Part shown: positions 1-27,235 of the stretch, piece after piece
How the letters are laid out: every line of letters begins with the position of its first letter
Numbering within the stretch: the first letter of the stretch is position 1
IMG/VR virus record: IMGVR_UViG_3300031565_000223
Coordinates: 1 to 31,487 of that record
Origin: a virus
Length of the DNA: 31,487 nucleotides
Reading direction: 5' to 3' (one strand)
Program-made: the position numbers and the translations under genes
Notes under the pieces: model-generated
What the model saw: only the letters and a program-made list of their open reading frames with translations
The model's database searches: none
What the model was told of the DNA's origin: nothing

Positions 1-1460
1 TGAATTTAAAACAACTTCAGAAAACGAACAAACGTGATCCGAATGAGGATGCACGTGCGTTTTATGAACGTCTACAGGAACAAGCTAAATCCGGACCGCT
101 ATTCAGTGCTAAAACGATTCAAATCATTGAAGAATATAAAATTAAGGAAAAGAATACGGCTAAATGGTTAGCAACCCATATTGAAAGTGGATTAAAACCA
201 CCATATGGAAGTGACTTGATCGGAATATTTGATTGGATCCGAGATCAAAAACCCGATTTGGATAAACTTGATTTTGAAGAAGCTAAAGAGTCATCTGATG
301 AATGGCACGAAGGATTTGTTGAATCAGATAAAACCGGTGAATATAAGACAAAGAATGTTGACTATGACTTTGGTGATGGTTACACTATGGTTCTCGTACC
401 AGTTGAGGACTTAGACGCTGAAGGCGATCTAATGGGACACTGCGTTGGATCGTACGAGGAACAGGTTGAATCGGGTACTAAAATTTACAGTCTTCGTGAT
501 CCTCAAAATAAACCACACGTAACTATTGAATTTAGTGGTGGGAAAATTCAACAAGTACAAGGAAAGGAAAATAAAGTACCAGTAAAGAAATATCATAAAT
601 ATATATGGAAGTGGGCTGAAGAACGAAATTTACACGAATCATACGCTTTATTTAGTTTTACACCTACGGATGTGTTGACTAGGTTATCTGATAGTTCTGA
701 TGAAGAACTTTTAATTCGAATAGCTGAAAATTTGAATACCTCTCCAGAGGTCTTGATCAAATTATCTGTTAATAATTATCGAGTTCGTTATAATGTAGCC
801 CATAATCCGAATACGCCTCCAGATATCTTGGCTAAACTAGCTAGTGATAGTTATATTGAGGTTCGTCAGCATGTGGCCTATAATCCTAGCACGCCTCCAG
901 AGTTCTTATCTAAGTTAGCTGATGACAAGGACTGGGCGACTCGTCAGAATGTGGCCCAGAACTACAGCACGCCTTCAGAGATCTTGGCTAAATTATCCGA
1001 TGATAGTGATGAGAGTGTTCGTGGTGGTGTGGCCATAAACCCTAACACGCCTTTAGAAGTCTTAGCCAGATTAGCTGATGATGATGGTGAATGGGTTCGT
1101 TATGGTGTGGCCGAGAACCCTAGTGCGCCTCCAGATATCTTGAATAAATTATCCGATGATGATAATGGGGATGTTCGTCAGAGCTTGGCCAAGAATCGGA
1201 ATACGCCTTCAGAAGTCTTAGCCAGATTATCCGGTGATGACGATAAATATGTTCGGAGGAATGTGGCCAATAATCGGAATACGCCTCCAGAGATCTTGGT
1301 CATGTTATCTGGTGATAAAGACGCGATGGTTCGTAAGGGTGTTGCCCGTAACCCTAATACGCCTTCAGGTGGTTTGGTAGTATCAACAAATCACCTGGCG
1401 TTTTCTGATCGGATTTCGTCCGTTATTAGCATGCTGGATAATATTCATCTTGCTAATTAA
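1..1460 (+). CDS. PcfJ-like domain protein with LRV/HEAT-like repeats (5' end cut by window)
   Basis: The reading frame is open from base 3. Bases 1-2 are TG, so an ATG straddling the window edge is possible; a TTG at 216 is a much weaker start. The middle, around bases 432-610, carries MGHCVGSY, then a SLRD-type segment and PHVTIE, then Q-x-Q-G-K-x-N-K-V-P. This is the signature of PcfJ-like proteins, which are common in phages and plasmids and whose biochemical role is unknown. From about base 660 to 1375 there are ten units of about 24 residues with the pattern N-T-P-P-E-I-L-A-K-L-S-D-D...V-R..V-A, which matches leucine-rich-repeat-variant (LRV) or HEAT-like solenoid units. The last unit is cut short by an unrelated tail. 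The solenoid suggests a protein-binding surface, but no partner can be named. The start is uncertain; domain recognition is fairly secure. Confidence 0.8.
   Translation, partial: NLKQLQKTNKRDPNEDARAFYERLQEQAKSGPLFSAKTIQIIEEYKIKEKNTAKWLATHIESGLKPPYGSDLIGIFDWIRDQKPDLDKLDFEEAKESSDEWHEGFVESDKTGEYKTKNVDYDFGDGYTMVLVPVEDLDAEGDLMGHCVGSYEEQVESGTKIYSLRDPQNKPHVTIEFSGGKIQQVQGKENKVPVKKYHKYIWKWAEERNLHESYALFSFTPTDVLTRLSDSSDEELLIRIAENLNTSPEVLIKLSVNNYRVRYNVAHNPNTPPDILAKLASDSYIEVRQHVAYNPSTPPEFLSKLADDKDWATRQNVAQNYSTPSEILAKLSDDSDESVRGGVAINPNTPLEVLARLADDDGEWVRYGVAENPSAPPDILNKLSDDDNGDVRQSLAKNRNTPSEVLARLSGDDDKYVRRNVANNRNTPPEILVMLSGDKDAMVRKGVARNPNTPSGGLVVSTNHLAFSDRISSVISMLDNIHLAN
661..1374 (+). repeat. about ten 72-bp coding repeats (LRV units)
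   Basis: Diverged tandem repeats of about 72 bases encode the solenoid units of the first gene. The best conserved block reads roughly acgcctccagagatcttg. The units differ at many third positions, so this is an old protein repeat rather than a recent DNA expansion. Confidence 0.7.
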
Positions 1461-4487: not shown

Positions 4488-5390
4488 ATGAAACATTGGA
4501 CCATTTACTGTCATATACACGTTGAATCTGGACGTCGTTATATTGGTTTGACTCAATATACGATGTTGCATCGATGGAATCAACATATTGCTCAGGCAAA
4601 AAATCTTAAAAACGAGAAGAGGTCACATTTCGCCGCCGCGATTCGTAAATATGGAAAAGATGCTTTTTCTCATGAAATCTTGGCGATGAGTTGGGATCTT
4701 GAAGGCGCGAATGTAACCGAACGAATTATAATTGAACAATGGGATACGAGAAATCCTGAAATAGGGTTCAACTTAGCTAAGGGTGGAGGATCAAAACCGA
4801 GTCTAAATCCTAAGAATCCGTGGAATCGTTCTGAATATCGGGACAAGTTAATGAATATATTTTCCAGTTCAAATTTTAAAATCAAGGTGTCTTCGAACGT
4901 GAAAGGACGAATTTTAAGTTCAGAAGTTCGTTCTGCAATATCTTCTCGTATGATTGGACACACGAAATCTTTGGAAGTTCGATCAAAGTTGTCTTCTGCA
5001 TTAAAAGGACACATCATGTCTGAAGAGACATGTAAGAAGATTGCTGAAGCACGTAAATTTCAAATTTTTAAACCGGAAACGCGCAAAAAGCTTTCACAAA
5101 AATCGGCAGGTCGAAGACATACAGATGAATCAAAGATCAGAATGTCCATAATTCAGAAGCAGAAAGCTGATGAACGTGTGGCTGGAGAAAAAGTTAGGTA
5201 TCGTGCAGTACATAGACCAACTCAAACACAAACTCATAAATTATGTAAAAAACATGGACAAATTCCTTTAGAAGAATGCTTTTCTTTGATTCGTAACAAT
5301 ATTGTTTATTATGAATGTCGCCTATGCCGTCGTTTTTATACCAAAAATTTTAAAGAAAATGTACGCAAGACAATCGTTTTTGACCTTTGA
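4488..5390 (+). CDS. free-standing GIY-YIG homing endonuclease
   Basis: This 300-residue protein has the GIY-YIG catalytic core at the N-terminus: IYCHIH (6-11), RRYIG (16-20), the conserved Arg at R29 in the HRW context, and the conserved Glu at E78 before an N-P...GFN...GG segment. From about residue 100 to 220 there are repeated DNA-binding segments of the NUMOD3 kind (S-x-E-x-R-x-K-L-S, K-G-H-x-x-S-E-E-T). The C-terminus holds a probable zinc finger, C253-x-x-H256-G and C277-x-x-C280. Such enzymes nick or cut a conserved site in phages lacking them and spread by repair. It sits 15 bases after the putative small terminase and ends 9 bases before TerL, so it probably homes into the terminase region. 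The gene looks more AT-rich than its neighbours, in line with mobility. Confidence 0.92.
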   Translation: MKHWTIYCHIHVESGRRYIGLTQYTMLHRWNQHIAQAKNLKNEKRSHFAAAIRKYGKDAFSHEILAMSWDLEGANVTERIIIEQWDTRNPEIGFNLAKGGGSKPSLNPKNPWNRSEYRDKLMNIFSSSNFKIKVSSNVKGRILSSEVRSAISSRMIGHTKSLEVRSKLSSALKGHIMSEETCKKIAEARKFQIFKPETRKKLSQKSAGRRHTDESKIRMSIIQKQKADERVAGEKVRYRAVHRPTQTQTHKLCKKHGQIPLEECFSLIRNNIVYYECRLCRRFYTKNFKENVRKTIVFDL

Positions 5391-14706: not shown

Positions 14707-17454
14707 ATGGGATTTCGACGCACCGCTAATGCCATAGTCTCTCGACCTGGCGTTGAATTTGATGAGTGGATGGACACGCTTCGCGCTCAAAATGAGGGTG
14801 CGGTACCGCGTGACCATATAAATCGTGTAGCCAAGACTGTTTTACGCAAGTGTGATCCGAAGCAGTATCTTCTTTCACATGCCACCATTGTGGCTTCTGT
14901 TGATACATATGCTCCAAGAAATGTGAAAACTGGGCGCTCGATGAACCAGGGCATTCAGATTGATGTGCGCTGGCCGGATTTTCGCATCAAGCCTGAGTGT
15001 CATGAAATCATCAATAATAACGGCGACGCATGGGAGCGTTCGCTGTTGTTATCAACATATCGTACATTCATCGGTGCCCATAATTATCTTGAACACATTC
15101 AGCTTCCTGCCCTGTCGAAGGGATTTATTGTCGATGCGATCGCTCGTGATCTTGGTAAATCAGCTTACATCGATATCCTTGTTGCCACGGACCGAAAACA
15201 TGGTCAATTAGTTGCGGATATTTTAGCTGGTGAAATCCAAGCCATGTCGATGGGCTGCCATATTCCTGGAACGCAGGTGTATCTCTCCGACGGTAGTCCG
15301 ATCAGTATTGAAGATGTTCGTCCAAATATGGAGGTTCTGACTCAGAAGGGAAACTCCTGTCGGGTCGAAAATCTTCAAATTCGTGAAAATAGATGGAAAG
15401 TCCAGACCATTAAATCAGTCGGTCTTCCATCCATTACATCGACAGACAATCACAACTATTACATAATTCGTTGCGAGACTGTGGAAAAGACCCGAGGTCG
15501 TGGAGGAAAGAATTCTAAACTCCATGTCGTGGAGAAGGACTATCCATTTGATTATGCAGAAGCCCGGACCGTTCGGGAAGGTGACTTCCTCGCTTTCCCC
15601 ATTTCACAGGACGAAGTCCAGTCTGATGTGACTCTATCCGAGGCTCGTCTGCTTGGTCTTTGGATCGGAGATGGGTGGAAGTTCGAGAACAACCATGACT
15701 CCACGATTGGTGTTGGATTTTGCCTAGATGAATCTCACCCCGAAATCGTTCAGGAAGCGATTCAAGCGTTAGACCAAGTTGCTTGGGTGAATCGAGAGCT
15801 TCATGTTGCCATGGGAGGTAACGCTCCTCGGCCTCAGAGCACTTCCGTGTCCAACAGGCGCGGGGCGTCATACCTCATGAATACTTCTCGCTCCTTCCGG
15901 GCGATCGTGGATCGTCATACTTCTGGGAGGACATCATCCGATAAGCTCATCGGGAAATCGGTCATGTCTTGGCCGAAAGACCATCAAATGGCATTCCTTT
16001 CCGGTCTTATAGACTCGGACGGATGTGTTTCGACCAGTAAGCGTGGGACTAAGAATGTTTTTCTTAGCACTAGGAATTTAAAGCTCGCGCATCAATACAT
16101 GCAGATTGCAGCTCGATGTGGCATCATTCCCACTTTCTCAGTTGCAGAACGCAGTGGCACGAAAATGTTGCCTGAGGCAACCGGGACTGATTACCAAATC
16201 AAGCTCCGGAACTCAGATGTTGTTCGAGTTCCGTCCTTGAAGGTTCGTGCAGCTATCGATGGGATTCGGCCCACTAGGGCCGGACGCAATAGTCGATGGA
16301 TTACCGATAAATATATTTATTCTAAAGTTAAGAAAATTGATCGATCTGACTATGCAGGGTTTGTATATGACCTTCAGGTTGACCAAGATCATTCATATGT
16401 GGCGAATGGTGTTGGGGTTTCTAATTGCATCAGCCTTTTTACTGTTTGCAATCGTTGTGGCAACGTAGCCTCTGATGATTCCCAGCTCTGTCCGTGTGTT
16501 TTATACCTTGGTAAGGGTAGCAAATTTGCGGATGATCAGGGTAATGAGCATCCTTTAGCTGAGCTCATTGGTCACGTATCTGTTCCGAATTCGAATCAGT
16601 TCATTGAAGCATCGTGGGTTCGAAACCCGGCTTTCCGTGGCGCAGTTCGTCGGAATATTTTAAATCCTGATGAGTCTAAAATAGCTTCTCAACTTTCTGA
16701 GGCTCATCGGGCGAGAGCATCTCGCGTTATTCCTACGTCTGGAATGAAAAAAGCCGCATCTCGTCGTTTTGCTCAACAAGGCGATGATGAATCGAGTCAA
16801 GATATGGATCTTGATGAACTTCTCGGCCAAGACCAAGGCGGTGGCCAAGATCAGGGTGGCCAAGATCAGGGTGGCCAAGATCAGGGTGGCCAAGATCAGG
16901 GTGGCCAAGATCAGAGTGGCCAAGATGGTCCAGATGAGCCTAAAGCTGACAAAATTGATGAAATGCTCGAGAAGGTTCAAGAGCAACTGTTATCAATATT
17001 AGTTGATAAGCTTGGCGAAAAACTTGAACCGAAACCCGAAGATGTCGGGTCCGTAACCGCTCCCAATCTCATGAGTGGGAATGATAATCTGATACGCTCT
17101 TCAGATGACTTTGACCGGCGTGTACGCCGAATCTTCCCTGAAGCCCGCACTCTTCATAGATGGGCTTCAAGAACATATCGGATTGTCCATGAAGGTGGTC
17201 TGAGAGCTGTTAGAGCTTCTAAATTGACTTCTAAAGATTTGATAGTCCTTTCATGGATTGAAGATCGCGTACGGGGAAGAAACTATTCCTCTCGTTTATA
17301 TAAGACTGCGATGAGAGTAGGATCAATGACGAATTTTCCCAGCGAGACTTCATTTCTTGCCGCATGCAGAATGAAGACTGGCCGGGTTCTTTCCCCCAGT
17401 GAGGAACGGTTCTTCACGTGGAAGGGACGGATTGCTTCCGTCTCCGGACTTTAA
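14707..17454 (+). CDS. prohead maturation protease precursor containing an intein
   Basis: This 915-residue precursor splices to a mature protein of about 525 residues. The N-extein (1-183) contains the prohead-protease core: INNNGDAWERSLLL, then GAHNYLEH with candidate catalytic H130, then KSAYIDILVATDRKHG. It ends in AMSMG, where S181 is the candidate nucleophile. The C-extein resumes with C574 as CISLFTVCNRCGN...LCPC, a Cys-rich ribbon usual after this serine in proteases of large phages, then GHVSVPNSNQFIEASWVRNPAF. Such proteases cleave scaffold and head proteins before DNA packaging. The C-terminal part is a Gln/Gly/Asp tandem-repeat linker (about 712-742), an acidic helix and a basic helical tail ending in RIASVSGL. 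The start has only a weak upstream GGTG. Confidence 0.9.
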   Translation: MGFRRTANAIVSRPGVEFDEWMDTLRAQNEGAVPRDHINRVAKTVLRKCDPKQYLLSHATIVASVDTYAPRNVKTGRSMNQGIQIDVRWPDFRIKPECHEIINNNGDAWERSLLLSTYRTFIGAHNYLEHIQLPALSKGFIVDAIARDLGKSAYIDILVATDRKHGQLVADILAGEIQAMSMGCHIPGTQVYLSDGSPISIEDVRPNMEVLTQKGNSCRVENLQIRENRWKVQTIKSVGLPSITSTDNHNYYIIRCETVEKTRGRGGKNSKLHVVEKDYPFDYAEARTVREGDFLAFPISQDEVQSDVTLSEARLLGLWIGDGWKFENNHDSTIGVGFCLDESHPEIVQEAIQALDQVAWVNRELHVAMGGNAPRPQSTSVSNRRGASYLMNTSRSFRAIVDRHTSGRTSSDKLIGKSVMSWPKDHQMAFLSGLIDSDGCVSTSKRGTKNVFLSTRNLKLAHQYMQIAARCGIIPTFSVAERSGTKMLPEATGTDYQIKLRNSDVVRVPSLKVRAAIDGIRPTRAGRNSRWITDKYIYSKVKKIDRSDYAGFVYDLQVDQDHSYVANGVGVSNCISLFTVCNRCGNVASDDSQLCPCVLYLGKGSKFADDQGNEHPLAELIGHVSVPNSNQFIEASWVRNPAFRGAVRRNILNPDESKIASQLSEAHRARASRVIPTSGMKKAASRRFAQQGDDESSQDMDLDELLGQDQGGGQDQGGQDQGGQDQGGQDQGGQDQSGQDGPDEPKADKIDEMLEKVQEQLLSILVDKLGEKLEPKPEDVGSVTAPNLMSGNDNLIRSSDDFDRRVRRIFPEARTLHRWASRTYRIVHEGGLRAVRASKLTSKDLIVLSWIEDRVRGRNYSSRLYKTAMRVGSMTNFPSETSFLAACRMKTGRVLSPSEERFFTWKGRIASVSGL
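15256..16425 (+). mobile_element. LAGLIDADG-type intein inside the protease (residues 184-573)
   Basis: The intein starts at C184 (CHIPGTQVYLSDG, block A) and ends at N573 in HSYVANGVGVSN (blocks F and G), followed by Cys as the +1 extein residue. A TSTDNHNYY segment fits block B. The usual penultimate His is Ser here; the block F His is present at 562. Two DOD endonuclease motifs occur: LLGLWIGDG at 315-323 and LSGLIDSDG at 431-439. The intein is therefore full-length (390 residues), and both splicing and homing activities appear intact. It lies three residues after the presumed catalytic serine S181, a highly conserved site that suits a homing target. Confidence 0.93.
16840..16929 (+). repeat. 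15-bp tandem repeat encoding Gly-Gly-Gln-Asp-Gln
   Basis: Five perfect copies of ggtggccaagatcag (16840-16914) are followed by one diverged copy. They encode a flexible, acidic, Gln-rich linker after the protease core. Near-identical DNA units imply recent expansion and likely copy-number variation between relatives. Confidence 0.9.
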
Positions 17455-20626: not shown

Positions 20627-22249
20627 ATGCCACAATGCCGTATTCATGGTGAACTACCCGAAACGTCCTTCTCGAAACGAGCTACAGGATATATTCCTCC
20701 GGTTTGTAAACAATGTGAGCGAGATAGCGCTCGTGAAAATCGAAAAGCGAGATATCAAGATCCTACAACTCGGGGTCTGATCCGATCTCAGAATAAATCG
20801 TGGCAACAAAATAATTCGGGTTATCTCTCTGATAAGTTCAAGAAAAAATATTCCTCCGATGAAGTATTTCGGAATCGGATTTTGGATAGAGTATCCTTAT
20901 ATAAAACCGACCCACAAGCTCACAGGTTAAAACGGGAACGAGCCGCGACATACTTCCAACAAAACAAAAGTAAAATTTATGAACGAATACAAGCCAAACA
21001 AGCCAAATATCCGGAACTGAAATTGCGCGGCGTTATTCGTTCTCGTGTTTGGGGTGCATTGAAACAATCGAAAGGTGGAGATTCTGTACTGAATCACCTT
21101 CCATATTCACTTCAAGATTTGAAGCATTACATCGAGTCAAAATTCGAATCATGGATGACTTGGGATAACTGGGGGCCAGCGTCAAATCAGCGACAGACTT
21201 GGCAAATTGACCACATTATCCCTCAGTCAATGTTTCCGTATGAATCCATGGGCTCGGATAATTTTCTTCTTTGTTGGTCCTTGAATAATCTTCGCCCTCT
21301 GGAATCGAAAAGAAATTTCACCGAAGGGAATCGTTCTGACTCATTTAATGGGTGTGAGACATTTTCTCAATTTTTGAGTTATGTTCGTAATACTGGGTAT
21401 GTGTCTGGAGTTATCGATCCGTCATATGAACGATTGAGTTTAATGAATGTTGATGATACGCTTCCTCAGCCGTTTGACGGTCTTTCATATCTTGACTCAC
21501 TTTTCCCACATAGATTCAATTCTCGTTCCGGTCAAAATCGTTCATTTATTGATTTTTGGAATGATGATCTTGAAATTCTTCGTGTTGTTGCTTATGTTGT
21601 GGCTGATGGACGTATTCCCACTCCAAAAATTATATCTACGAATGTCAAATTTAATTCATCACTCCCCGCCCATTTCTATCCGTCCGCAGCTTCGGCTCTC
21701 GTACGGAAGTATGCTTCTGGTGGAGATGTAATTGATCCATTTCTTGGGTGGGGTGGTCGAACGCTCGGAGCTCTTTGTGGCGGAGCGAAATCGATTTGTG
21801 GAACGGACTTGCAGTCCGAGTCGGTCGATGGCTGTCGTCGTTTGGTGGATGACTACGCAAAAATCCGTCTGGTGGACTCGGAATTTACCTGTCAAGATTT
21901 CGCGACATACTTACAAAACACCGAACGTCGTTTCGATTTGTTGATGACGAGTCCACCCTTCATGGCGACTGAAGACTACGGAGTGAAAGGGCACTCTGAC
22001 GTTCGTTCCTGGTCAGAACAGATCGTCCAGCCATTGGTGCGCGGCGCGTTGCGTGTCGTCAAATCCGGTGGTCATATAGCCATTCATGGGCAAGATCGTC
22101 GCAATATGCCGGTTTTGACAACTCTTTTGACAGCTTTCACGGCTGCTGGAATGGAGAAAGTTGCGGAATACCGATACGGGAAGACCGCAGGGCAGTCCGT
22201 TGTTGTATTCCTGAGGACTGGGAAGAACATAAGTACCTATTCAGTATAA
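20627..22249 (+). CDS. HNH endonuclease fused to a DNA methyltransferase
   Basis: This 540-residue fusion has three parts. Residues 4-30 hold a probable zinc finger (C4-x-x-H7-G...C27-x-x-C30). Residues 125-240 hold an HNH nuclease: IDHIIPQ with D195 and H196, then SLNNLRPLESKRN. Residues 285-535 form a class I amino-methyltransferase: AdoMet motif I as DPFLGWGGRTLGA (370-382) and catalytic motif IV TSPPF (441-445), which is typical of N4-cytosine or N6-adenine enzymes. It lies directly after the major capsid gene, has its own apparent promoter and is probably a mobile element. The methyltransferase may protect the cut site, making a one-polypeptide restriction-modification-like homing enzyme. 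Free-standing HNH enzymes are usual in phages; the fusion is the unusual part. Specificity cannot be read from sequence. Confidence 0.88.
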   Translation: MPQCRIHGELPETSFSKRATGYIPPVCKQCERDSARENRKARYQDPTTRGLIRSQNKSWQQNNSGYLSDKFKKKYSSDEVFRNRILDRVSLYKTDPQAHRLKRERAATYFQQNKSKIYERIQAKQAKYPELKLRGVIRSRVWGALKQSKGGDSVLNHLPYSLQDLKHYIESKFESWMTWDNWGPASNQRQTWQIDHIIPQSMFPYESMGSDNFLLCWSLNNLRPLESKRNFTEGNRSDSFNGCETFSQFLSYVRNTGYVSGVIDPSYERLSLMNVDDTLPQPFDGLSYLDSLFPHRFNSRSGQNRSFIDFWNDDLEILRVVAYVVADGRIPTPKIISTNVKFNSSLPAHFYPSAASALVRKYASGGDVIDPFLGWGGRTLGALCGGAKSICGTDLQSESVDGCRRLVDDYAKIRLVDSEFTCQDFATYLQNTERRFDLLMTSPPFMATEDYGVKGHSDVRSWSEQIVQPLVRGALRVVKSGGHIAIHGQDRRNMPVLTTLLTAFTAAGMEKVAEYRYGKTAGQSVVVFLRTGKNISTYSV

Positions 22250-23189: not shown

Positions 23190-23573
23190 TTATATAAGGG
23201 GCAAATTCCCCGTAATAGGCTGAAGCTTTTCTGTAGTATCCGGTCCGAAAGCGGCACAGGTGAGTGTCTGCACGCCATGAAATTCGGTTAGTCCCGCGTC
23301 ATATACGGGATGAACTGTCACATCGTGTCGTCCGGCTCTCTCAATCAGTTCCAATAGTGCATCTTCAGATGTCACTGATACGACGATTTTCTTGAACGTA
23401 CCTTGTAACCAAATTTTTTGCTCTTGCGTGATTTTTCGGGTGAAGGTTCCCGACTCGCTGATTTCGGCACTCTTTACAAGAAACATCATGGAGGCATGTG
23501 CGGCTTGAGCCGCAATTTTGCCTTTACGCATGTTGAGGTCTTTCCTCACCACTATGACTTGTTTTAAATCCAT
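23190..23573 (-). CDS. pth2: peptidyl-tRNA hydrolase, Pth2 family
   Basis: ATG 23573 is chosen because it lies 13 bases after the preceding gene's stop; a TTG at 23612 would overlap that gene. The 127-residue product begins MDLKQVIVVRKDLNMRKGKI and continues AAQAAHAS, the signature of Pth2 enzymes, which release tRNA from stalled peptidyl-tRNA. The C-terminal part, YDAGLTEFHG...TLTCAAFGP and PITGNLPLI, fits the family's second half, and length is near the usual 115-125 residues. Pth2 is the archaeal and eukaryotic type; most bacteria rely on the unrelated Pth1, so a phage copy is notable. It would act in the cytoplasm, perhaps recycling tRNA during heavy late translation or under host tRNA-directed defence. 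Confidence 0.88.
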   Translation of the reverse strand: MDLKQVIVVRKDLNMRKGKIAAQAAHASMMFLVKSAEISESGTFTRKITQEQKIWLQGTFKKIVVSVTSEDALLELIERAGRHDVTVHPVYDAGLTEFHGVQTLTCAAFGPDTTEKLQPITGNLPLI

Positions 23574-23899: not shown

Positions 23900-23927
23900 T
23901 TGACCTACATTGTAATATATGTATGGA
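23900..23927 (+). promoter_or_regulatory. weak candidate promoter for the lipoprotein gene
   Basis: TTGACC (23900-23905) and TATGGA (23922-23927) are spaced by 16 bases in the divergent region. The -35 box is good and the -10 box is poor, so this is tentative. Confidence 0.3.
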
Positions 23928-23990
23928 ATATTCTTCGTAAATGTTTCGGGGCTTCGTGTATATCCTTTTGTCTTTAACCTGGAGTTCTTT

Positions 23991-25370
23991 ATGGGAAAAA
24001 TTTCAAATATTCTGTTTATCTTTGGTCTGACTTTCGTATTTGCGTGTGGTGAAAATAAGACTCAACCCGAGTCAAACGTAGCGGTTGTTAACCCGCCTGA
24101 TGACTCAACTGCTGATCCCGGCCTACCTGAAGATGCCGGTTCTGGCACAGCCGGTTCTGGCACAGCCGGTTCTGGCACAGCCGGTACGGATGGCGGTGAA
24201 GCTGGTACTGGCGGTGAAGCTGGTACTGGCGGAACCGGCATGGAACCCGCCTCTGTTTGTGCTTGTAGTGGCACCAACTGCGCGATGTGTGGAAACGTTT
24301 GTGTTGACCTCGATACGGATCCGAAGAATTGCGGAGCATGTGGCTATGCGGTGGTGAACGGAAGAATGTGTTCGGATGGCGCTCCGAGCCCTGCTTGGCA
24401 GCCCATTTCCACTAATGGTGGCGCTCCTCTGCCTCGAACTGGACATGCTGCAGCTTACCTTGACGGACTTACTTCTCCGTCCGTAGATGGTGCTTTTGTT
24501 GTATCTGGTGGTTCAGATACTGTTGGTGGTCTGGCAACTAATATGATCGGTATTTATTATCCGACGTGGGATAGGTGGTCAATCGGCAGGCCCTGGCTTG
24601 GTACTGCACGCTGTCATCACGGGTCTGTTGCTTCTCGTGATAATGTTTATATTTTCGGTGGCCTTTCTGACTGTTCTAAGGATTCAAGCGTCGTCTCTAC
24701 TGATCTAGAAGTTCAAGATCGTGCAACGCTCATTTCCATGTTTCCAAAGTGGAGCTCTATTTCGGGTGTTGGTGTTGGTGTTCCCGGGCCTCGTTATAAC
24801 TTTGCACATATTTGGACGGGGATGGGTATTTTCGTTTACGGCGGGTCTGATTCTAATTCGTTGCCGCTGTCAACTGGTGCGATGTTTGATCCAGTTAGTT
24901 CAACTTGGGTTGATGCAGACTGCGCTCTTCCTGATTGCGCTCGGTCCGGTAATATGAGTGCGTTCATGAACCATGCTACCAGATCTGTAAATTTGTTTGG
25001 TGGAAGTAAGATTAACGGTCTTGATTATGTACCTATTGTTAATAATGGGTCAATTCCTCTTTCTCCAATCGGTTGGTACACACTTCCGGTTCCTAACGGC
25101 ACTCCCGATCCGTTACCGAAGCGTCATGCTGATTCTATCCACAGAGTCTTCTACCTCACGTCTGAAGATTGTTCAAGCCCTTCCGTGTTGATTTATGATA
25201 AGAAAAATGAGATGTGGTCTTCTGACACGTCTCCGACTCCTCCAGGCCTTGTTGCTGAAGCAGTGGTTGCATGGACCGGAGCTGAAATGCTTGCCTGGTC
25301 AGGTGCTTGTGGAAATTCTGCTCCGGTTTCCATCGGAGGTCGTTATCAGCCTCCCGCTTATATCCCTTGA
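23991..25370 (+). CDS. lipoprotein with Myxococcota-type Cys-rich motif and kelch-like propeller
   Basis: ATG 23991 is chosen because GGAG lies 6 bases before it and a lipoprotein signal follows at once: MGKISN, a hydrophobic stretch, then VFAC with lipidated Cys at 19. A Gly/Ser/Thr/Ala repeat linker follows (about residues 45-80). Next is a Cys-rich segment from C90 to about residue 130, including CGNVCVDLDTDPKNCGACG, a pattern I know from secreted and surface proteins of Myxococcota. The rest contains recurrent blade-like motifs (RTGHAAAY, VYIFGG, IFVYGG, VNLFGG) typical of kelch-like beta-propellers. It should be anchored in a host membrane facing outward. Likely host-derived, it could alter the surface and block superinfection, or act during release; no direct evidence favours either. 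Confidence 0.8.
   Translation: MGKISNILFIFGLTFVFACGENKTQPESNVAVVNPPDDSTADPGLPEDAGSGTAGSGTAGSGTAGTDGGEAGTGGEAGTGGTGMEPASVCACSGTNCAMCGNVCVDLDTDPKNCGACGYAVVNGRMCSDGAPSPAWQPISTNGGAPLPRTGHAAAYLDGLTSPSVDGAFVVSGGSDTVGGLATNMIGIYYPTWDRWSIGRPWLGTARCHHGSVASRDNVYIFGGLSDCSKDSSVVSTDLEVQDRATLISMFPKWSSISGVGVGVPGPRYNFAHIWTGMGIFVYGGSDSNSLPLSTGAMFDPVSSTWVDADCALPDCARSGNMSAFMNHATRSVNLFGGSKINGLDYVPIVNNGSIPLSPIGWYTLPVPNGTPDPLPKRHADSIHRVFYLTSEDCSSPSVLIYDKKNEMWSSDTSPTPPGLVAEAVVAWTGAEMLAWSGACGNSAPVSIGGRYQPPAYIP
24136..24180 (+). repeat. three perfect 15-bp coding repeats in the lipoprotein linker
   Basis: The unit ccggttctggcacag occurs three times in tandem and encodes the Gly-Ser-Gly-Thr-Ala linker. Exact identity suggests recent expansion. 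Confidence 0.9.
24192..24227 (+). repeat. two perfect 18-bp coding repeats in the lipoprotein linker
   Basis: The unit ggcggtgaagctggtact occurs twice in tandem and encodes Gly-Gly-Glu-Ala-Gly-Thr. It directly follows the 15-bp repeat array and extends the flexible linker between the lipid anchor and the Cys-rich segment. Confidence 0.85.
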
Positions 25371-26734: not shown

Positions 26735-27235
26735 TTAACCTTCCAACTCTATCATTGTTACGATTCTATCGGTCATCTCTTCACCACCCCATATCGCTAC
26801 CGACCCGACTTTCCATATGACTGGATCGAATTCTAAATCATCGCATGGATCTTCTGAGTAAGATAGAGTTATGTGTGGTTCAAACTTTGGATACTTTTCG
26901 GAGTATCCAACGTCTGCTTCTTTCATTTGTTTCGTAATCTCGGTTCTAAACTTAGCAATCGTCGGGGACTGAACCCGAGCTATAACCGGGACCCCGCTGT
27001 CCGGGTTCGCTGAGAAACAAGTTCTTGTTGCACATCCGACTAGAAACGGCTTTGTTTTTTGTGCTAAGGCCGCGACTACTGCACCTGCTCTAATCACTTG
27101 CGCTAACGGAGCCATTTTGCCGAGGTATACGAGAGTTATATGCATTTCTTCAGGCTCAGACCGTTCACCGGGAGCCTCTATCATATATAACTCTTGTGCT
27201 ATCTTCTTAGGTACTTTGATGCCTATGAACGCCAC
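26735..27235 (-). CDS. 2H phosphoesterase (LigT / 2'-5' RNA ligase-like)
   Basis: This 166-residue protein starts at GTG 27235. It carries the two signature motifs of 2H phosphoesterases, H32-I-T34-L and H121-I-T123-L-S, placed 89 residues apart as expected, within the usual length range. Members cleave or form 2',3'-cyclic or 2'-5' phosphodiester bonds in RNA or nucleotides. Phage members include enzymes that destroy cyclic nucleotide alarm signals of CBASS defence (Acb1) and possible RNA-repair enzymes. Substrate choice cannot be read from these motifs. It is the first gene of a two-gene reverse-strand unit, divergent from the gene at 27357. Confidence 0.82.
   Translation of the reverse strand: MAFIGIKVPKKIAQELYMIEAPGERSEPEEMHITLVYLGKMAPLAQVIRAGAVVAALAQKTKPFLVGCATRTCFSANPDSGVPVIARVQSPTIAKFRTEITKQMKEADVGYSEKYPKFEPHITLSYSEDPCDDLEFDPVIWKVGSVAIWGGEEMTDRIVTMIELEG

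Follow-up and report, generated by a model that had tools for sequence, protein, structure and literature searches.

A homing intein beside the probable catalytic serine of a phage prohead protease

The window, the whole stretch of 31,487 nt of viral DNA analysed here, carries at 14707–17454 (+) an open reading frame of 915 residues for a prohead (head maturation) protease precursor that contains an intein. The intein occupies residues C184 to N573 (15256–16425, +; 390 residues), with C574 as the +1 residue. It is preceded by an N-extein of residues 1–183 (14707–15255, +), which holds His130 and the presumed nucleophile Ser181 (codon TCG, 15247–15249, +); M182 and G183 follow, and then the intein, three residues past the serine. 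The C-extein part of the protease domain (16426–16662, +) comprises C574, a zinc-ribbon-like element (C581/C584/C595/C597) and the presumed catalytic E634 in the motif FIEASWV. Removal of the intein leaves, by calculation, 525 residues, and the spliced protein includes a Q/D/G-rich linker and a C-terminal domain. The linker contains GGQDQ repeats (about 16826–16932, +), whose copy number differs between the otherwise near-identical relatives L003 and L004. The earlier note had read the intein position, its distance from Ser181, the 525-residue product and a penultimate Ser from the letters; all four agree with our analysis, the position exactly, with Pfam, NCBIfam and fold comparison concordant.

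This class 1 intein has an ordinary fold and includes a predicted LAGLIDADG homing endonuclease. Block A (CHIPGT) opens with Cys1 (C184, 15256–15258, +), and block B contains Thr-x-x-His as TDNH (T246–H249, 15442–15453, +), whose T, N and H are invariant across inteins of the window type. Block F (YDLQVDQDHS, 16366–16395, +) provides D555 and H562, also invariant in this type, and the intein ends in Ser572-Asn573 (16420–16425, +) before the +1 Cys. The penultimate residue is thus Ser572 and not the His usual in class 1, a tolerated variant that does not exclude this class. Two LAGLIDADG motifs, LLGLWIGDG (15649–15675, +) and LSGLIDSDG (15997–16023, +), keep their acidic residues, D322 and D438. 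Inside the intein, profile searches returned Pfam LAGLIDADG_3 (PF14528, residues 426–489, E 7e-14, at the second motif), Hom_end (3.5e-5) and Intein_splicing (9e-8; 32.5 bits, below its cut-off of 35.8), and NCBIfam intein_Cterm (TIGR01443) matched residues 552–574 with 26.7 bits against a cut-off of 15.6. In the predicted precursor model, residues 182–573 match solved endonuclease-bearing inteins (TliVMA, Z 29.3; PI-PkoII, Z 29.2), and the Hint fold was recovered against solved inteins with Z 17–29 over residues 182–575. Class 2 and class 3 were ruled out by the presence of Cys1 and of Asp555 at F:4, class 3 inteins being marked by no position-1 nucleophile and by the Cys of WCT at F:4. An inactive endonuclease relic was ruled out by the two acidic motifs and by purifying selection, described below. 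We infer that the intein is competent to splice and that its endonuclease is active.

Known inteins place the element further. The class 1 LAGLIDADG inteins TliVMA, PI-PkoII and PI-SceI share its Hint and two-motif architecture over the whole insert (Z 24–29), with Cys1, TxxH, the block F Asp/His, Asn and Cys+1 in common; the window intein differs from them in its penultimate Ser and in its host gene, a phage prohead protease. The Mja KlbA intein (MJ0781, 2jmz), a weak profile match, also has Ser naturally at the penultimate position (PMC4031507), but it belongs to class 2, whereas the window intein retains Cys1 and the endonuclease.

The gene interrupted by the intein encodes a prohead protease, and an intein-free relative of it models with the fold of T4 gp21 and the herpesvirus assemblins. 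A scan of viral contigs found 364 relatives of the protease, most of the 80 listed being without an intein, and phrog_18299 (head maturation protease) matches all 39 aligned relatives. A PDB sequence search with the protease profile gave chance matches only, and no Pfam protease model was found among 39 family members, apart from one chance match; fold comparison was used in place of both. The model of an intein-free relative, L010 (pLDDT 81.6), found herpesvirus assemblins or T4 gp21 as its 34 best structural matches, with Z 9.4 to T4 gp21 (5jbl; rmsd 2.6 over 128 residues) and Z 9.5 to the VZV assemblin. These matches were put on top by VIA-align; with Foldseek alone, the E-values of the protease were weak, 0.034 at best. 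In the window, the protease gene shares its gene block with those for the terminase, the portal and the major head protein. Together, the phrog_18299 matches, the fold, the conserved residues and the head gene block bear out the earlier assignment of the reading frame. T4 gp21, HK97 gp4 and the assemblins have the fold of the intein-free relative and its pattern of His/Ser plus an acidic residue in common with this family; the window protease differs from them in having no Pfam protease match and in a Cys4 zinc-ribbon-like insert directly after the serine motif.

Several residues stand out among the relatives. H130, S181, M182, G183 and C574 (C184 of the intein-free protein) are invariant among 38–39 aligned relatives, as are three cysteines of the zinc-ribbon-like element, and E634 (E244 in intein-free numbering) is present in more than 90%. 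The protease fold is therefore accompanied by a conserved Ser, a conserved His and a conserved third residue. In an hhalign register, which is weak, S181 falls on HK97 S114 (P 0.026) and T4 S140 (P 0.14). Because of its invariance, the L010 fold, this register and the neighbouring head genes, S181 is very probably the nucleophile, as the earlier note had presumed; an H130/S181/E634 triad is suggested by conservation, fold and the weak register. The Ser181 codon is of both the TCN and AGY kinds among relatives, even close ones (TCG in the window, AGC in L003), and the choice between them does not track the presence of the intein.

Does the insertion disable the enzyme? Intein-free relatives, such as L010 (87% identical), run uninterrupted through SMG-CISLFT, and the Cys at the G183/C184 site is invariant in them. 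Because the intein breaks the strand carrying S181 and parts S181 and H130 from E634, the unspliced precursor is probably inactive. The AF2 precursor model has mean pLDDT of 45–49 (residues 121–140), 52 (171–180) and 36–51 (631–650), against 85–92 for the same three catalytic elements in the intein-free model; this drop in confidence at H130, S181 and E634 is suggestive only and is not a measurement. The earlier claim that the precursor cannot form its active site is supported as probable.

The distribution of the intein bears on its history. Window-type inteins occupy G183/C184 in the window and in 12 other contigs (10 distinct sequences), with empty alleles interspersed, and intein-free alleles occur among near relatives. 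A scan with the intein profile located it in no protein but this protease, and at G183/C184 in 12 of 12 loci. On the protease tree, its sporadic presence needs at least five changes, four of them forced by strong branches (nine intein-bearing rows tested). The intein tree groups the window with L003 and L038, the protease tree groups it with L003 and L034, and the conflict is significant in both directions (AU p 1e-55 and 4.5e-10). Between the window and L003, the inteins are 95.5% identical in nucleotides (pS 0.14), whereas the exteins are saturated (pS 0.70–0.79), with a sharp break at both insertion edges. In the same pair, pN/pS is 0.12 overall and 0.09 in the endonuclease region; by this measure the endonuclease is under purifying selection. 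A single ancient vertical insertion was rejected by the tree conflict and the synonymous divergence.

A further trace is seen in L005 (with intein) and L028 (without), which are otherwise near-identical, with 17 SNPs over 6.8 kb. Eleven of the 17 lie 39–114 nt 3' of the intein, followed by none for 2.2 kb, and 0 of 20000 shuffles were as clustered. This is the pattern expected from co-conversion and would fit either gain by L005 or loss by L028; no donor of the L005 conversion tract was identified. Horizontal movement into one site is indicated by (i) the co-conversion pattern; (ii) the tree conflict; and (iii) the single site, and on these comparisons the intein is of the mobile, homing kind and has moved recently between phages. 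Elsewhere, L038 and L011 are 88–97% identical in N-extein DNA near the site and only 75–82% in C-extein DNA, possibly through recombination or a long conversion 3' of the intein.

The protease family as a whole has six insertion sites, after residues 58, 105, 154, 183, 185 and 204. A DNA pattern scan for MSMGCxxxGT revealed a second intein lineage at G183/C184, in a divergent protease clade (L112, L117, L125, L134); its members have a penultimate His and are 50–72% identical to one another and about 21% to the window type. The S181 site has been invaded by two unrelated intein lineages. The other sites are filled in L112 (58), L043 and L097 (105), L134 (154), the Eggerthella phage LE2-3 (185) and L102 (204), and two inteins each are present in L097, L102, L112 and L134. 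The penultimate residue is His at sites 58, 105, 185 and 204 and Lys at site 154. In LE2-3 (L006, 4854–7967), the gene LE23_71, annotated as 'tRNA synthetase', is a head-protease relative with its intein at SMGLN^C, two residues farther downstream; besides its insertion point, that intein differs from the window intein in its penultimate His and is about 24–30% identical to it. Additional intein-like genes are present in the records behind L004, L097, L102 and L040 (sister phages), with as many as about four open frames in one record. The family also occurs in about 218 cultured-phage records, most of them mycobacteriophages, and in those listed that span the site, the match continues straight through it with no intein there.

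How did the intein come to lie beside the catalytic serine? We consider it highly likely that it is a homing parasite of the prohead protease gene in a clade of large phages, that its active-site position reflects a constrained homing target and that splicing is most likely constitutive. In an intein-free copy of the gene, the endonuclease would recognize the conserved DNA at and near the catalytic-serine motif M-S-M-G^C and cut it when the two kinds of phage infect the same cell; repair templated by the intein-bearing copy would then install the intein along with a short length of adjoining DNA. Once the precursor is translated, splicing by C184, C574 and N573 would restore S-M-G-C-I-S-L-F in an active protease and would most likely be fast enough not to limit head maturation. 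A homing target under functional constraint would explain the position, and the double invasion of G183/C184 by unrelated inteins fits such a target. As a general rule inteins are found in conserved, functional positions (PMC2814812; PMC5050341), because both the target sequence and precise loss are constrained in such places (PMC2814812); the position therefore needs no regulatory meaning. Not every insertion site has surroundings more conserved than the family average (percentiles 0.27–0.95), and we therefore limit the claim to a location next to functional motifs.

The earlier note proposed instead that slow or conditional splicing acts as a timer, withholding protease activity until prohead assembly is complete. 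The separation of S181 and H130 from E634, the low precursor confidence at the three catalytic elements and the non-canonical penultimate residue speak for such a timer. Against it, most relatives do without the intein, which is horizontally mobile and keeps a conserved endonuclease; because of this sporadic, mobile distribution no host function is needed, and we regard a timer as improbable. The note had also suggested that the penultimate Ser may slow splicing. This Ser is fixed in 10 of 10 distinct window-type inteins, even at identities as low as about 44%. Among functional inteins, about 5% are without a penultimate His, KlbA has Ser there by nature, and putting His back impairs some inteins (PMC4031507). 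The RDF intein of phage Bethlehem, with a native Gly, splices completely, and its His version takes more than 5 h to half-splice (PMC5050341). The proposed effect of Ser is thus not supported; given the missing His in the sequence, slow splicing of the window intein is possible. Splicing would appear to have no regulatory role.

The same penultimate Ser could instead mark a decaying parasite that lost its His, splices inefficiently and merely burdens the phage. This we hold to be less probable again, as the Ser is invariant across the 10 distinct inteins, no nucleophile or assisting residue has been lost, and the overall pN/pS between the window and L003 indicates purifying selection. The Cys4 cluster C581/C584/C595/C597 starts 7 residues past the splicing nucleophile C574; a conditional switch that gates splicing and protease activity inside the prohead, for instance through zinc or redox chemistry of this cluster, earns slightly less credence still. 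That the insert stays in, with the 915-residue protein used unspliced or the gene dead, is scarcely credible, since the splicing motifs are complete, removal restores the invariant motif exactly and the frame is open in every relative.

Terminases, polymerases and nucleotide enzymes are familiar hosts of phage inteins. No previously described intein in a prohead protease came up in a search of open-licence papers; the host gene and the multi-site hotspot are new, and the element itself is of a known kind. Mycobacteriophage inteins (TerL, RDF and others) likewise lie at active-site motifs, are mobile and often have Gly, Lys or Ser at the penultimate position, and the protein groups in the available part of that survey include no capsid protease, unlike the window host (PMC5050341). 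The L005/L028 pair records allelic conversion around the intein in near-identical wild phages. Intein-bearing head proteases are misannotated, as in LE2-3, so that head proteases are missed in large phages. An enzyme expected to be inactive when unspliced is also a clean system for asking if splicing rate matters to a phage.

Other features of the window deserve mention. A gene for a free-standing GIY-YIG/NUMOD3 homing endonuclease (4488–5390, +) immediately precedes that of the terminase large subunit, and an open reading frame just past the major head protein gene (20627–22249, +), with weak HNH-like and DNA-methylase-like matches, is possibly another free-standing homing element, the second one within the head module. 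A 2H phosphoesterase (2'-5' RNA ligase superfamily; 26735–27235, −) scores 26.2 bits with Pfam Acb1 anti-CBASS, just below the cut-off of 27. A peptidyl-tRNA hydrolase, PTH2 (E 5e-30), is encoded in this phage at 23190–23612 (−), and an LRV leucine-rich-repeat-variant array with a PcfJ-like part at 216–1460 (+). Finally, a Kelch-repeat protein (23919–25370, +) begins like a lipoprotein and contains GTGG repeats and a Cys-rich stretch resembling STIG1, a style of protein common in myxobacteria and a possible hint to the host.
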